Shown here: one piece after another, positions 1-5,996 of the stretch
Numbering within the stretch: the stretch's first letter is position 1
Layout: each line of letters begins with the position of its first letter
Position numbers and translations under genes: made by a program
The notes under the pieces: model-generated
Database searches by the model: none
Told to the model about the DNA's origin: nothing
The model's input: the letters and a program-made list of their open reading frames with translations, nothing else
NCBI GenBank assembly: GCA_023132135.1
Contig: JAGLYR010000157.1
Coordinates: 1-5,996 of the forward strand
Source: Candidatus Eiseniibacteriota bacterium
Lineage (GTDB): Bacteria > Arandabacterota > Arandabacteria > JAGLYR01
Direction of reading: 5' to 3'
DNA length: 5,996 bases

Positions 1-45
1 CATGGACCGGTACCGTAGCAGAAACCTGGTGAGAAATGCAGGCTA
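1..45 (-). repeat. Left arm of a 45-bp inverted repeat
   Basis: The reverse complement of these 45 bases matches 5945-5989 at 44 of 45 positions; the only difference is C25 here against T5965 (G expected). Read on the minus strand it begins TAGCCTGCATTTCTCACC and ends GGTACCGGTCCATG. The inner edge is sharp: base 46 onward no longer matches the flank of the right arm. The outer edge is the first base of the window, so the true repeat may be longer. It lies 9 bp upstream of the promoter -35 box. It contains the overlapping palindromes ACCGGT and GGTACC, but no long hairpin and no coding sequence. I do not recognise the family. Confidence 0.9.
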
Positions 46-54
46 ACTATCTGC

Positions 55-83
55 TTGACCCCCCATATTGCCATTGGTATATT
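55..83 (+). promoter_or_regulatory. Extended -10 sigma70-type promoter for the tRNA-tig-clpP-clpX-lon transcript
   Basis: The -35 box is TTGACC at 55-60 (5/6 to TTGACA) and the -10 box is TATATT at 78-83 (5/6 to TATAAT), with an ideal 17-bp spacer. The -10 is preceded by TGG at 75-77, the extended -10 motif TGn. Transcription would start near 88-91, about 100 nt before the tRNA. It is the best promoter I see in the window, and nothing comparable precedes clpP, clpX or lon. No CIRCE element or sigma32-like site is visible, so heat-shock control is not evident here. The boxes are seen directly; activity is inferred. Confidence 0.75.
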
Positions 84-119
84 GCAGACAGGGTGATTTG
101 TGCGAAGAAAGCAGGCAGC

Positions 120-140
120 CGCCCGGCCCTTGGCTGGGCG
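120..140 (+). other. GC-rich hairpin in the leader between promoter and tRNA
   Basis: Bases 120-128 can pair with 132-140 as a 9-bp stem with one G-U pair, around a CTT loop at 129-131. The following sequence (GTTGCGTTTGGTTGG region) is only moderately T-rich, so this is at best a weak attenuator. It may equally be a structural part of the 5' leader removed when the tRNA is processed. The rest of 91-188 shows no open reading frame with a good ribosome-binding site. Confidence 0.35.
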
Positions 141-188
141 TTGCGTTTGGTTGGTGGTGTGTACCCGGTTTGGCTGCGGGCGCCGCTT

Positions 189-270
189 GCGGGAGTGGCG
201 GAACTGGCAGACGCGCTGGATTTAGGATCCAGTGGGGAAACTCGTGGGGGTTCGAATCCCCCCTCTCGCA
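189..270 (+). tRNA. tRNA-Leu, anticodon TAG
   Basis: It decodes CUN leucine codons, chiefly CUA. The full class II cloverleaf can be drawn. The acceptor stem pairs 189-195 with 263-269, including one G-U pair, and A270 is the discriminator base. The D stem is 198-200/212-214 and the anticodon stem 216-220/228-232, with anticodon TAG at 223-225. A 13-nt variable arm spans 233-245. The T stem is 246-250/258-262 around loop TTCGAAT. The discriminator is followed by CCC, so the 3' CCA is not encoded and must be added by tRNA nucleotidyltransferase. It sits 58 nt ahead of tig downstream of the same promoter, so it is probably excised from a shared transcript by RNase P and 3' trimming. Confidence 0.97.
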
Positions 271-314
271 CCCCAAAGATTGCGCAGATCCGGTTCTGTC
301 CGGTTTTAAGTCCC

Positions 315-320
315 GAGAGG
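315..320 (+). promoter_or_regulatory. Ribosome-binding site of tig
   Basis: GAGAGG lies 8 nt before the ATG at 329. A second in-frame ATG follows immediately at 332 (11 nt away). The closer spacing favours 329, but the two starts differ by one methionine and cannot be separated from sequence alone. Confidence 0.65.
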
Positions 321-328
321 TATGTGAC

Positions 329-1624
329 ATGATGAAGGTTGAAATTGAGGAATCTGGTGGAACGAAACGGAAGCTCCGGATAGAAGTTCCGGCTTCGGAA
401 GTCGATGAGCAGCTGAAGAACGAACTCGTGCGGCTGCAGCGGGATCTCAAGATGCCGGGGTTCCGCAAGGGGAAGGTGCCGACGGATCTCGTTCGCAAGA
501 AGTTCTCTGAGGCTGCGCGGCGTGAGGTGACCGAGCGCATCGTGAGAGAGGCCTGTATGAATGCGCTTCGGGAGCATGACCTCAAGCCCATCGCGGCGCC
601 CGAGATCCATGATCTCGAGTTTAAGGAAGGGCAACCCCTCTGCTTCCGCGCCATAGTGGAGGTGTGGCCCGACATAGAGCTGAATCAGTACAAGGGTCTC
701 AAGGCAACACGGGAGGTGGCCGCGGTCGCCGAGGAGGATGTGAATCGGCGCCTCGAGATGCTCCGGCAGATGCGCGCCGAGTTGGTGCCGGTGGACCGGG
801 CGGCCGCCAACGGCGATTTCCTGATTGTGGACTATGACGTGTTTGGCGATGACGACCAGCCGATGGAGGGGCGGGGTGTCAGGAACCACATGATCGAGTT
901 GGGTTCCGAGGGACTGGTGAACGGGTTCTCTGAGGGTCTGATGGGAGCGAAGGTCGGTGACAATCCAACCATCCGGGTGTCGTTCCCCGAAGAGGAAGGG
1001 GTACACCCCGATGTCGCGGGGAAGACCCTGAAGTTCTGGGTGAAAGTCAACGCCGTCAAGGAGAAGCAACTGTCGGAACTGAACGACGATTTCGCTAAGG
1101 AGCTGGGAAACTACGACCGACTCGAAGACGTGAGAAGGGATATCAGAACGGGCCTCGAGCAGGAAATCAGCTTTGAGGCCGATCGGAGGGTCCGGGAAAT
1201 CCTGGTGGATGACGTGATCCGGGCAAATCCCTTCGAGGCTCCTGAATCAATGGTGGGTAACTTGCTGGAGGCCATTGTCCGGGATGCAGAGCGGGAGCAC
1301 CAGAGCGGCGAGGCGTTCGATGCCGAGAAGGCAAGAGCGGCTCTCAAGCCGGTGGCCGTCCGTCACTCCAAGCGTTTTGTTGTCCTGCGGGAAGTAGCGA
1401 AGCGGGAATCGCTGGTTGTGACGCCCGAAGAGGTGGACGCGAGAATCATGGTTCTGGCAAAGCAGGCCCGGCAGTCGCCCGACGAGGTCCGGAAGAAGAT
1501 CGAGACGGACGACTCCATGGATCAGCTTCGAGGGGATCTGCTGGAGGAGAAGGTTCTGAGGTTCCTGATGGAGCAAGCGGATGTGGAAAACGTGTATGGC
1601 CAGCAAACGGGGGGAGAGAAGTAA
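329..1624 (+). CDS. tig: Trigger factor, ribosome-associated chaperone and peptidyl-prolyl isomerase
   Basis: Trigger factor docks on the ribosome at the tunnel exit, shields nascent chains and has FKBP-type prolyl isomerase activity. The 431-residue product is almost the length of E. coli Tig (432). The N-terminal ribosome-binding domain (about 1-115) carries the signature loop GFRKGKVP at 44-51. An FKBP-like domain spans about 160-245, with VNGFSEGL at 197-204 where E. coli has IPGFEDGI. The helical C-terminal arms (about 246-431) are highly charged. The same frame stays open upstream to 68, but that would read through the tRNA, so the start at 329 with GAGAGG is preferred. The stop TAA shares its last A with the clpP start (TAATG), implying translational coupling. 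Identification is secure. Confidence 0.97.
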
Positions 1625-2205
1625 TGCTCGTTCCAATCGTCGTAGAACAGTCGGCTCGGGGAGAGAGGTCTTACGACATCTACTCCCGGTTGTTGAAGGA
1701 TCGGATCATCTTCATTGGATCGCCGATCGACGACGTGATTTCCAACGTCTCGATCGCGCAGATGTTGTTTCTGGAAGCTGAGGATCCCGAGCGTGATATC
1801 TACTTGTACATCAACTCCCCGGGTGGAGTGATTTCGGCGGGACTGGCCATCTATGACACCATGGAGTACATCAAGCCCGACGTGGTCACCATCTGCATGG
1901 GGCAGGCGGCCAGCATGGGGGCCGTCCTCCTGGCGGCGGGCGCCAAGGGCAAGCGCTCTGCGCTGCCCCACGCCAGGATCATGATCCATCAGCCCCTCGG
2001 AGGCAGCCAGGGCCAGGCCTCGGACATTGAGATCTACACCAATGAAATCCTGCTCCTCAAGCAGCGGCTTGCCGCGATCCTTCAAAAGCACACGGGGCAG
2101 GACAAGAAGAAGCTGGCTGCGGACTCAGACCGCAACTACTTCATGTCGGCCGAGGAAGCGGTGGCATACGGGTTGGTGGACGAGGTCATCTACAAGAAGA
2201 AGTAG
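1624..2205 (+). CDS. clpP: ATP-dependent Clp protease proteolytic subunit, with Asn at the usual Asp triad position
   Basis: ClpP forms the two-ring serine-protease chamber that degrades cytosolic proteins delivered by ClpX or a ClpA/ClpC partner. The 193-residue product aligns without gaps to mature E. coli ClpP. It begins MLVPIVVEQ, so there is almost no propeptide. The nucleophile is Ser97 in GQAASMGA and the base is His122 in MIHQPLGG; the oxyanion-hole segment SPGG is at 65-68. The third triad residue, Asp171 in E. coli (ERDRF), is Asn171 here (DRNYF; codon AAC at 2134-2136). Listeria ClpP1 is a known ClpP with Asn at this place, so reduced or conditional activity is possible but not shown. 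The start is set by GGGGAG at 1611-1616, 7 nt upstream, and overlaps the tig stop by one base. Confidence 0.97.
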
Positions 2206-2276
2206 GCGGGCTGTTTCGATCGCAGGGGAAATCTGTAAAAAGTAGGCGGGCTATTTCGATCGCAGGGGGAATCTGT
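2197..2276 (+). repeat. Tandem duplication of a 40-bp unit across the clpP stop and clpX leader
   Basis: Two abutting units, 2197-2236 and 2237-2276, match at 37 of 40 positions (differences at 2199/2239, 2213/2253 and 2229/2269). Each contains AAGTAG, a GGCGGGCT block, TTTCGATCGCAGGGG and ATCTGT. The first unit supplies the clpP stop codon TAG (2203-2205). The second supplies the clpX ribosome-binding site. The first copy also has the purine-rich AGGGG, but bases 2238-2240, equivalent to the clpX GTG, are AAA, so it has no start codon. Removing one unit would shorten the clpP-clpX gap from 72 to 32 nt. Confidence 0.95.
2265..2270 (+). promoter_or_regulatory. Ribosome-binding site of clpX
   Basis: GGGGGA lies 7 nt before the GTG at 2278, which fixes this unusual start codon. 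No in-frame ATG lies between here and the conserved zinc-finger cysteines that would give a complete protein. Confidence 0.7.
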
Positions 2277-2277
2277 C

Positions 2278-3531
2278 GTGAAGAGGAAACAGTCCTCTCC
2301 GCATCCAATTCGCTGTTCGTTCTGCGGAAGGGGGCAGGACGAGGTTACCAAACTGGTTTCGGGGCCTTCGGTCTACATCTGCAGCGAGTGTGTGCGGCAG
2401 TGTAACGACATTCTCAAGGAGGATCTGGGCCGGGAACTGGCTTCGGCGGTTTCTCATCTGCCCAAACCGGTGGACATCGTCCGGGCGCTGGACGAATACG
2501 TGATTTCCCAGCACCAGGCGAAGAAGACGCTGGCCGTGGCGGTCTACAACCACTACAAGCGGATCGGGTTTGAGGGAACCCCGGGAGGCGTGGAACTGGA
2601 GAAGAGCAACATGCTCCTCGTCGGGCCCACGGGAACCGGCAAGACCCTTCTGGCCAACACCATGGCCCGGATTCTGAAGGTTCCATTCGCGATCTGCGAT
2701 GCCACGACGTTGACCGAGGCAGGCTACGTCGGCGAAGATGTTGAGAACATTCTGGTACGGCTCCTCCAGGCGGCGGACTATAACCTCTCCAAAGCTGAGC
2801 AAGGAATCATCTATGTCGATGAGATCGACAAGCTGGCGCGGAAAGCCGATTCGCCCTCCATCACCCGGGACGTCTCGGGTGAGGGGGTCCAGCAGGCCCT
2901 CCTCAAGATACTGGAGGGCACCATTGCCAACGTGCCCCCACAGGGAGGGCGGAAACATCCGCAGCAGCGCTATATTGAGGTCAACACCCGGAACATCCTG
3001 TTCATCTGCGGTGGGACGTTCGATGGACTGGAGGAAATCGTCTCTCGCCGCCTGGGCAAGAACACCCTGGGATTCCACGCCAAGGGGCCAAGCGTGGCCA
3101 AGCAGCACAGGAGCCAGTTGATGGCGCAGGCTCGGCCCGAGGATATGGTGAAATTCGGCCTCATCCCCGAGATGATTGGGCGCCTGCCGGTGTTCAGTAG
3201 TCTGGAGGATCTGGATGAGGACGCGCTGGTCCGGATCCTGGTCGAGCCCAAGAACGCGCTGACCAAGCAATACAAAAAGTACTTCGAGATGGAAGGGACC
3301 GACCTGCAGTTTACAGATGATTCGTTGAGAGCCGCGGCTCACAGTGCGGTTGAGCGGAAGACCGGTGCGCGCGGACTGAGATCGGTTCTGGAAGAAGCCA
3401 TGCTCGATATCATGTATGAGCTCCCGTCCAAACGTGGCCTGAAGGAATGTACGATTACAAGAGAGGCTATGCTGAAGGAAGGGGAGCCAATTCTGGTCGT
3501 GGAGAAGAGTCGCAAACGGAAAAAAGGATAG
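2278..3531 (+). CDS. clpX: ClpX, ATP-dependent unfoldase of the ClpXP protease
   Basis: ClpX is a hexameric AAA+ unfoldase that recognises ssrA-tagged and other substrates and threads them into ClpP. The product is 417 residues (E. coli 424). The N-terminal zinc-binding domain has C13-x2-C16 and C35-x2-C38. The AAA+ core shows Walker A GPTGTGKT at 116-123, pore loop GYVGE at 149-153, Walker B YVDEID at 179-184, the RKH pore motif at 225-227, an arginine finger at R302 (IGRLP) and sensor 2 GARGLRS at 363-369. The ClpP-docking IGF loop reads LGF at 264-266, a mild variant. The C-terminus is a basic tail (SRKRKKG). Translation starts at GTG. It follows clpP after a 72-nt gap containing the 40-bp duplication, and lon begins 7 nt after its stop. 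Identification is secure. Confidence 0.97.
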
Positions 3532-3536
3532 AGGAG
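3524..3536 (+). promoter_or_regulatory. Ribosome-binding region of lon, overlapping the clpX stop
   Basis: Two Shine-Dalgarno-like stretches lie here. AAGGA at 3524-3528 is 10 nt before the lon ATG and sits within the last clpX codons. AGGAG at 3532-3536 is only 2 nt before the ATG, which is unusually close. The overlap suggests that ribosomes ending clpX re-initiate on lon. Confidence 0.55.
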
Positions 3537-3538
3537 CC

Positions 3539-5947
3539 ATGTTCAAGGTAGAACGCGAAGGCGAATCCTTCGACATTCAGGACGTTCTCCCACTGCTGCC
3601 GCTGCGGGATATCGTTGTGTTTCCCTATATGATCGTACCTCTCCTGGTGGGGCGGCCCCGGTCCATCGCGGCCCTGGAGATGGCGATGTCGCAGGACCGG
3701 ATTATCATGGTGGCCGCCCAGAAGCGGGCCGACGTGGGTGATCCGGGAGCCAAGGATATCTTCCGTGTGGGAACCGTGGCCCGGATTCTGCAGTTTCTCC
3801 GCCTGCCGGATGGGACGGTGCGGGTGTTGGTGGAGGGACTGGCCAGGGTCCGGATCATACGGTATGGCCGGGACAAGAACCCCGTGCGGGTCCGTATTGG
3901 AGAAATCGCCGCGGAGGAGATAGCCAGCTCGCAGACCGAAGCGCAGGTGCGATCAGTCCGCGCCCAGTTCGAAGAGTACGTTCGCCTCTCTCGCCGCATC
4001 CCCGACGAAGTGCTGATTTCCGTGAACAATATCGAAGACCCGATGCGGCTCGCCCACGCAGTCTCCGCGCACCTGGCCTCCCGGGTTGAGGCCAAACAGA
4101 AGGCCCTGGAAGCCGTGACCCTGAAGGAGCAGTTCGCAATTCTGGCGCGGGCTTTGGAGCAGGAGCTGGAGATTGCCCGCATTGAGCGCCGGATCGATGA
4201 GGAGGTCCGGTCCCAGGTCCAGAAAAATCAGAAGGAATTCTACCTGCAGGAGCAGCTCAAGGCCATCCGGAAGGAACTGGGAGAGCAGGGGGGTGACCTG
4301 GCCGAGACGGACGAGCTTGTGGAGCAGGTCGAGAAATCCAGGATGCCCAAGGCTGTCCGGGCCAAGGCCCACAAGGAGATAGAGAGACTCCAGAGGATGA
4401 CGCCCCTGTCTCCCGAGGCTGCCGTGGTTCGCAACTATGTGGAGTGGTTGGCATCGTTGCCTTGGAAGAAGAAAACCAGGGACAATCTCGATATCGAGAG
4501 AGTGGAGACAATCCTGGATGAGGATCACTATGGGCTGAAGAACGTCAAGGAACGCATTGTCGAGTATCTGGCGGTCCTGCGTCTCGCGGGTAACATGAAG
4601 AGCCCCATTTTCTGTTTTGTCGGCCCGCCCGGAGTGGGCAAGACTTCCCTCGGTCGCTCCATCGCACGGGCCATGGGCCGGAAGTTCGTCCGGGTGTCCC
4701 TGGGAGGAATAAGGGACGAGGCGGAAATCCGGGGTCACCGCCGTACATACATCGGATCCATGCCGGGCAAGGTTATGCAGAGCATCAAGCGGGCAGGGAC
4801 GAGGAACCCGGTGTTCCTTCTGGACGAGATCGACAAGATGTCGAGCGATTTCCGGGGCGATCCCGCCGCGGCCCTCCTGGAAGTGCTGGACCCCGAGCAG
4901 AACGGCGCGTTCAATGACCACTTCCTGGACGTGGACTTCGACCTTTCCGATGTCCTGTTCATCACCACCGGCAATGTGCTCCACACGGTTCCTCCCGCGC
5001 TTCAGGACCGGATGGAAGTGATTCGCATCCCGGGATACCTCCGGCACGAGAAGGTCCGGATAGCGCAGGATTTCCTGATCCCGAAACAGCTGAAGAACCA
5101 CGGGCTGGCAAACGGGAATATCACTTTTACCCGGCAGGGGATCGAGATGATTGTTGACCGGTACACCCGGGAAGCGGGGGTCCGGAACCTGGAACGGCAG
5201 ATCTGCTCGGTCTTGAGAAAAGTGGCCCGAAGAATCTCGAAAGATGGCAAAGAATACACCGACCGGATCACGGCCCGGAGTGTGCAGAAGTTCCTGGGTG
5301 TCCCTCCGTATTCGAAGCGGCAGATCTGGCCGAAGGATCGCGTGGGTGCTGCGTCGGGGCTCGCGTGGACTGAGTCCGGCGGGGACGTGATGACGGTGGA
5401 AGTGACTTCGGTGCCAGGAACCGGGGAACTCATTCTCACCGGGCAGTTGGGCGAGGTGATGCAAGAGTCGGCCCAGGCGGCGGTGAGCTACGTCCGCGGC
5501 CGGGCTTCCTCCATGGGGCTCGATCCCAGGTTTTTCGAGAAGATGGATATTCACATTCATGTGCCGGAGGGTGCGATCCCCAAGGATGGACCATCGGCGG
5601 GTGTGGCTATGGCCGCCGCGTTGACCTCGGCGCTGACCCGGGTTCCCGTGTCTCGAGAGGTGGCGCTGACCGGCGAGATTACCTTGGGCGGGGAGGTTCT
5701 TCCCATCGGTGGACTGAATGAGAAAATTGTGGCGGCCCGGCGCGCGGGGTTCAAGCTGGTGCTTATTCCCAGGGAGAACGAGAAGGATCTGGCAGATCTG
5801 CCCAAGAGAGCGCGGGAGGGTCTGGATATCCGCTTGGTGGATACGGTGGAGGATGTCCTGAGCGCCGTGCTCAAAATGCCGCGCAAGTCTCTGGGTCTGG
5901 GTGAGCGCATGGCGGGGGATGGATCGGGCCCGGCGATCTCCCACTAG
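3539..5947 (+). CDS. lon: Lon protease (LonA type), ATP-dependent serine protease
   Basis: Lon is a cytosolic hexamer that degrades misfolded and regulatory proteins with AAA+ and Ser-Lys protease modules on one chain. The 802-residue product is in the usual range (E. coli 784). The N-terminal LON domain begins LPLLPLRDIVVFP at 17-29 and runs to about 210. A charged helical, coiled-coil-like segment follows (about 210-290). The AAA+ module has Walker A GPPGVGKT at 362-369, Walker B VFLLDEID at 425-432, sensor-1 region TTGN at 476-479, arginine finger R491 and sensor-2 region REAGVRNLER at 544-553. The protease domain has Ser686 in PKDGPSAG and Lys729 in GGLNEK, spaced 43 residues as in E. coli. 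The stop TAG is the first triplet of the right 45-bp repeat, so the last codons abut the repeat and the tail may have been altered by its arrival. Confidence 0.97.
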   Translation: MFKVEREGESFDIQDVLPLLPLRDIVVFPYMIVPLLVGRPRSIAALEMAMSQDRIIMVAAQKRADVGDPGAKDIFRVGTVARILQFLRLPDGTVRVLVEGLARVRIIRYGRDKNPVRVRIGEIAAEEIASSQTEAQVRSVRAQFEEYVRLSRRIPDEVLISVNNIEDPMRLAHAVSAHLASRVEAKQKALEAVTLKEQFAILARALEQELEIARIERRIDEEVRSQVQKNQKEFYLQEQLKAIRKELGEQGGDLAETDELVEQVEKSRMPKAVRAKAHKEIERLQRMTPLSPEAAVVRNYVEWLASLPWKKKTRDNLDIERVETILDEDHYGLKNVKERIVEYLAVLRLAGNMKSPIFCFVGPPGVGKTSLGRSIARAMGRKFVRVSLGGIRDEAEIRGHRRTYIGSMPGKVMQSIKRAGTRNPVFLLDEIDKMSSDFRGDPAAALLEVLDPEQNGAFNDHFLDVDFDLSDVLFITTGNVLHTVPPALQDRMEVIRIPGYLRHEKVRIAQDFLIPKQLKNHGLANGNITFTRQGIEMIVDRYTREAGVRNLERQICSVLRKVARRISKDGKEYTDRITARSVQKFLGVPPYSKRQIWPKDRVGAASGLAWTESGGDVMTVEVTSVPGTGELILTGQLGEVMQESAQAAVSYVRGRASSMGLDPRFFEKMDIHIHVPEGAIPKDGPSAGVAMAAALTSALTRVPVSREVALTGEITLGGEVLPIGGLNEKIVAARRAGFKLVLIPRENEKDLADLPKRAREGLDIRLVDTVEDVLSAVLKMPRKSLGLGERMAGDGSGPAISH

Positions 5948-5989
5948 CCTGCATTTCTCACCAGTTTTCTGCTACGGTACCGGTCCATG
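5945..5989 (+). repeat. Right arm of the 45-bp inverted repeat
   Basis: It begins TAGCCTGCATTTCTCACC and ends GGTACCGGTCCATG, and is the reverse complement of 1-45 with one mismatch (T5965). Its first three bases are the lon stop codon. Bases upstream of 5945 do not match the flank of the left arm, so the inner edge is exact. Only 7 bases of outer flank are visible (GGCTGCG), and the left arm shows none, so the outer edge is undefined. It is the only sequence after lon. It does not fold into a clear intrinsic terminator: there is no GC stem followed by a T run. Confidence 0.9.
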
Positions 5990-5996
5990 GGCTGCG

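Follow-up and report, generated by a model that had tools for sequence, protein, structure and literature searches.

Inverted arms around a tig-clpP-clpX-lon operon very probably represent the truncated ends of two IS1380-type MITE copies at contig ends

The window, meaning the whole stretch of DNA that was analysed (5,996 bp), is one entire contig of a 3.40-Mb draft genome assembled in 345 contigs. It carries on the plus strand a sigma-70-like promoter (TTGACC-17-TATATT, positions 55–83) upstream of tRNA-Leu (188–273) and an operon comprising tig for trigger factor (329–1624), clpP (1624–2205), clpX (2278–3531) and lon for endopeptidase La (3539–5947). The promoter lies outside the repeat described below, and the tRNA, tig, clpP and clpX likewise belong to its flank. 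A reading made from the letters alone (the sequence-only reading) had described this payload as essential-type genes with no transposase. The four protein genes were confirmed, no transposase was found in the window, and the gene content is that of a core housekeeping operon for protein quality control. A 40-bp tandem duplication of 93% identity was also observed at 2197–2276; it includes the stop codon of clpP together with the spacer that precedes clpX.

Self-comparison of the window reproduced the inverted arms at 1–45 and 5945–5989 that the same reading had reported; all its coordinates were correct and 44 of the 45 positions agreed. This similarity is far above chance level. The inner edges also fell where they had been placed, the left one at position 45, 9 bp before the promoter-like site, and the right one exactly on the last stop codon, as the lon stop TAG at 5945–5947 constitutes the first three bases of the right repeat copy. 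No Rfam family fits the arms.

The main guess of the sequence-only reading was that the arms belong to a dispersed, non-coding REP/MITE-like family located between transcription units, which a lack of further copies in the genome would have argued against. A search of the 3.4-Mb genome with the 45-mer revealed dozens of further copies, with 40 arm copies scored from 154 candidates. These genome-wide counts come from sequence searches and retrieved stretches, and the copy numbers are lower bounds, because several searches scored only a part of their candidates. The 20-bp terminus CTGGTGAGAAATGCAGGCTA occurred about 214 times in the genome when up to 3 mismatches were allowed, and a reversed control gave 0; the family is spread over at least a hundred sites. 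The complete form is ~181 bp long (reference copy L013, 1954–2134). Full copies are 88–100% identical, those other than the reference 88–98%. Read inward, both ends give TAGCCYGCATTTCTCACCAG and are 20-bp terminal inverted repeats (TIRs), a single strand folds to one long hairpin (−98.6 kcal/mol, z −10), and the repeat codes for no protein. The family guess was thus borne out by the many copies, the 181-bp full form and, as described below, TIRs of IS1380 type. The repeat is short and non-coding, has TIRs at both ends and is dispersed in multiple similar copies, as MITEs are.

Inward of the terminus, the family splits into several sub-families, and mosaics with other intergenic repeats are numerous. 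The intergenic flanks in seven retrieved loci (L013, L015, L022, L026, L030, L085 and L098) were themselves mosaics of the simple repeats GGGACTAGGGACTA, GTCACCTGTCAC, GGAAATAGGAAAT and GGGCGACCCGGTGGGTCGCCC and of truncated family copies. At one mismatch, zero termini were found in seven further genomes from the class, the full set available for the phylum, which is in keeping with a lineage-specific expansion.

The origin of the termini was indicated by a resident IS1380-family transposase gene on contig C139 (PF13701, E 1e-155; NF033539, 390 bits versus a cut-off of 180). The right end of this IS reads TGGTGAGAAATGCGGG / GTGGTGAGAAATGCGGG, followed by CTAA, and is the same terminus as that of the repeat. 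No left end was recognisable; it seems to have been cut by an IS3-like sequence. We compared it with a set of 80 loci from many phyla that carry a related transposase. Relatives for which both ends were found are elements of ~1.64–1.77 kb with CCCGCATTTCTCACC-like ends, that is, the same TIR, so that 16–17 bp of the ends are common to the repeat, the resident IS1380 right end and IS1380 elements elsewhere. Because the same terminus occurs on the resident IS1380 and on IS1380 elements across phyla, the arms very probably constitute ends of a MITE family of IS1380 type.

Identical 4-bp flanks were present in 43 of the 55 IS1380 relatives in which both flanks were read, and all 43 were YTAR (CTAG 32, CTAA 6, TTAG 3, TTAA 2). 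The outward flanks of the repeat copies are mostly CTAG or CTAA. The repeat shares with IS1380 (PF13701, NF033539) the terminal CCYGCATTTCTCACCA / TGGTGAGAAATGCRGG and the flanking CTAG/YTAR, and one IS1380 member resides in the same genome. It differs in its length of ~181 bp, in having no transposase and in missing a clean 4-bp duplication in most copies. The TIR of the family is present in the repeat itself, and the YTAR duplication was shown for the IS elements. CTAG on both sides was found for one full copy (L069) and for a composite in L020 (1462–1735), which ends at the TAG stop of a gene encoding 429 aa. Most other complete copies have unequal flanks, TTAG or CTAG versus CTAG or CTAA, and some lie within larger mosaics. 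As the repeat encodes no DDE transposase, we rejected its classification as an IS1380 element proper and call it only IS1380-type or IS1380-moved. At two places, L064 ~789–794 (GCGGG CTAG CCTGC) and L023 2047–2054 (CTAGCTAG), two termini share or abut one CTAG; judged from these junctions, it looks as if new copies insert at a CTAG that previous ones left behind.

Palindromic, intergenic, clustered and mosaic repeats with few target duplications could also be REP/BIME-like elements spread by a RAYT or another tyrosine transposase of the IS200/IS605 type. GTAG REPs, which are palindromic and clustered as well, have termini that often supply the TAG stop to flanking ORFs (PMC3733652). They are, however, 20–40 bp stem-loops tied to tyrosine transposases (PMC3733652), whereas here the TIRs are long and belong to a family of DDE transposons. 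The sole trace of a Y1 transposase was a short fragment, a 112-aa frame covering positions 21–82 of the 121-position profile, whereas the ends of the repeat are those of IS1380 elements, with the same 16–17 bp across phyla, and the full form is a 181-bp element with true TIRs. REP/RAYT membership was therefore rejected, and we regard this origin as very improbable.

Both window arms correspond to the same end of the MITE, here called the A end, and derive from two different copies. The left arm (1–45, minus strand) is the outer 45 bp of one copy and reads TAGCCTGCATTTCTCACCAGGTTTCTGCTACGGTACCGGTCCATG on that strand. The right arm (5945–5996, plus strand) comprises the initial 52 bp of another copy and matches the reference 181-bp copy with 100% identity over these 52 bp, after which the contig stops. 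Such positions are common: of the 40 arm copies scored, 21 are found no more than 300 bp from a contig end, versus 7% expected (p 2e-14). The assembly breaks at the repeat, and the framing of the operon by two copies is an assembly effect. A contig flanked by two copies is expected because assembly stops at this repeat, and the outer portions of both copies are missing because the contig ends there. The image of an operon framed by repeats, which had given the sequence-only reading its title, consequently does not hold: the arms are not a unit, and both are contig ends inside dispersed copies.

Inverted, nearly identical arms would also be expected of a true composite transposon or a recombination cassette, in which they would delimit a mobile unit carrying the operon. 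Against this, dozens of further copies exist that are mostly not paired around anything, draft assemblies put such copies at contig ends, and the cargo would be a core housekeeping operon that lacks a transposase. A composite transposon comprises two complete IS copies and an outer target duplication, and the arms here are partial and located at contig ends. To our knowledge, the ends of the repeat are also unlike the GTTRRRY/RYYYAAC of attC-like gene cassette sites. We give a composite transposon or recombination cassette around the operon almost no credence, and the recombination or cassette role that had been offered as a weaker option found no support among independent copies broken at contig ends. 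What lies between the arms is an operon of the ordinary chromosome rather than cargo. More generally, inverted repeats that close both ends of a contig in a draft genome usually reflect assembly breaks, not a mobile unit.

Taken together, we consider it very likely that the arms are the truncated ends of two independent, non-autonomous IS1380-type MITE copies that would have been moved by a transposase in trans, with a preference for CTAG/YTAR. In this mechanism, an IS1380-family transposase recognising CCYGCATTTCTCACCA-type ends would move the ~181-bp hairpin element and would prefer CTAG/YTAR targets. Insertions would survive mainly beside gene ends, and one at a TAG stop would keep the TAG and leave the gene unharmed. 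The right arm could thus have its inner edge at the lon stop because insertion at a TAG leaves the TAG in place; the CTAG at 5944–5947, which consists of the last base of the final lon codon and the TAG stop, fits the YTAR target or duplication of IS1380 elements. The C139 transposase, or an unassembled sister copy of it, presumably moved the family, and the analysis yields a high-copy IS1380-type MITE family together with its probable transposase. Three findings count against this explanation: an identical 4-bp duplication is seen in few full copies (the L069 copy and the L020 composite), the resident IS has no recognisable left end, and docking on stop codons exceeds the neutral CTAG prediction and ignores the YTAR rule there.

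This docking was seen well beyond lon. In 42 of 94 termini with a following CTA, the repeat TAG was the exact end of an open frame of 100 codons or more. The two other frames yielded 8 and 18, and chance coincidence of the frame with stops was rejected on these counts. With stricter gene calls, made with a simple codon-usage caller, the terminus provided the in-frame TAG stop in about 37 of the 94, although the termini were sampled by searching for the terminus itself, so that anchoring is partly built in. All 20 docked genes that were scanned had Pfam domains. Several of the domains (TatD, amidohydrolase, LptF/LptG and DUF401) extend in full to a point only a few residues from the TAG, which indicates natural gene ends of real, full-length genes.

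A part of this docking is accounted for by CTAG targeting, a high usage of TAG in the lineage, and selection. TAG as the commonest stop seems unusual for a GC-rich bacterium. In a 220-kb sample of the same genome (L188–L207), for which the simple codon-usage caller was used as well, stops without the repeat were 73 TAG, 59 TGA and 10 TAA (n = 142). TAG likewise led the stops of relative G003 from the same class (L220–L229), with about 45%; a sample of the relative G001 was largely of no use, as its GC of 0.19 suggests masking. CTAG is seven-fold rarer in the 220-kb sample than base composition predicts, and 23 of its 111 sites lie on stops. The high TAG usage, together with the rarity of CTAG and the location of its sites on stops, makes docking on TAG less surprising. 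CTAG targeting alone was nevertheless insufficient as a cause, since 18 of 53 CTAG termini were at stops versus 17% of neutral CTAG sites (p 0.003), and so were 15 of 19 GTAG or ATAG termini. Of the 37 termini at stops, 15 had G or A before the TAG, versus 4 of 57 elsewhere. In addition, 23 of 46 A ends were at stops, versus 0 of 11 B ends (p 0.002; the B-end sample is small). An excess therefore remains: stops with a preceding G or A serve as well, and a single end docks. Only this stop-codon excess and the end bias set the family apart from a routine MITE; the docking is a measurable instance of mobile DNA settling on stop codons with the gene unharmed.

A query with the interior of the repeat gave 27 candidates, all of which were scored, and nearly all proved to be complete or interrupted by a contig end; the exceptions were one partial copy in C309 and, in C318, a weak match of 31 bp. 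Copies retaining the A end but breaking off after about 37–77 bp were common. Selection-limited deletion at a gene end or directional insertion would each give such a pattern. The latter corresponds to a dedicated stop-docking element that would set its A end to the gene, with the far end variably shortened, and spread by means different from the usual IS1380 cut-and-paste, such as one-ended transposition or an RNA-templated, target-primed step. The in-frame TAGs, the G or A preceding them, the end bias, the real and full-length docked genes and the rarity of interiors without an A end away from contig breaks, next to common A-end-only fragments, are all in line with this alternative. However, few B ends were available, a terminus-based collection builds in anchoring, and purifying selection at gene ends can yield a similar asymmetry. 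The reverse-transcription route was discarded, as the only reverse transcriptase found is unlinked to the repeats. We therefore judge a dedicated docking element unlikely. That lone reverse-transcriptase-like ORF (RVT_1, 533 aa, L209:1081–2682) lies between two ORFs of unknown role and is possibly a defence-type RT.

ERIC, BOX/RUP and Correia repeats have other ends and targets than the repeat described here and are set apart from it by description. They resemble it in being dispersed, non-coding, intergenic and partly mosaic (PMC10969869). Closer in size and distribution are Chunjie of Geobacter uraniireducens, with 38 long and 57 partial copies (PMC10969869), and QMITE2 of Coxiella burnetii, which is found mainly in 3′ untranslated regions (PMC5896051). 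These families are 150–235 bp long with many intergenic and partial copies, and QMITE2 lies at gene 3′ ends, but the repeat here differs in its IS1380-type ends, the frequent exact supply of a TAG and the strong one-end bias. The supply of TAG stops by REPs is already known. No description of an IS1380-derived MITE with stop-codon docking was found in the open-access literature, most subscription papers being outside the scope of the search.

A second IS1380-like terminus, TAGCCTGGRTTATTCATGAA, was found 230 times in the same genome (G000) when up to 3 mismatches were tolerated, and the control gave 0. Its copies also follow TAG stops, as exemplified at C5:310–329 and C129:3180–3235. A stop-specific mode of spread, in which one end docks on TAG whatever base precedes it and the other is variably truncated, unlike YTAR insertion, seems doubtful; together with the TAGCCTGGRTTATTCATGAA family, such elements would trail a sizeable share of the genes of this lineage.
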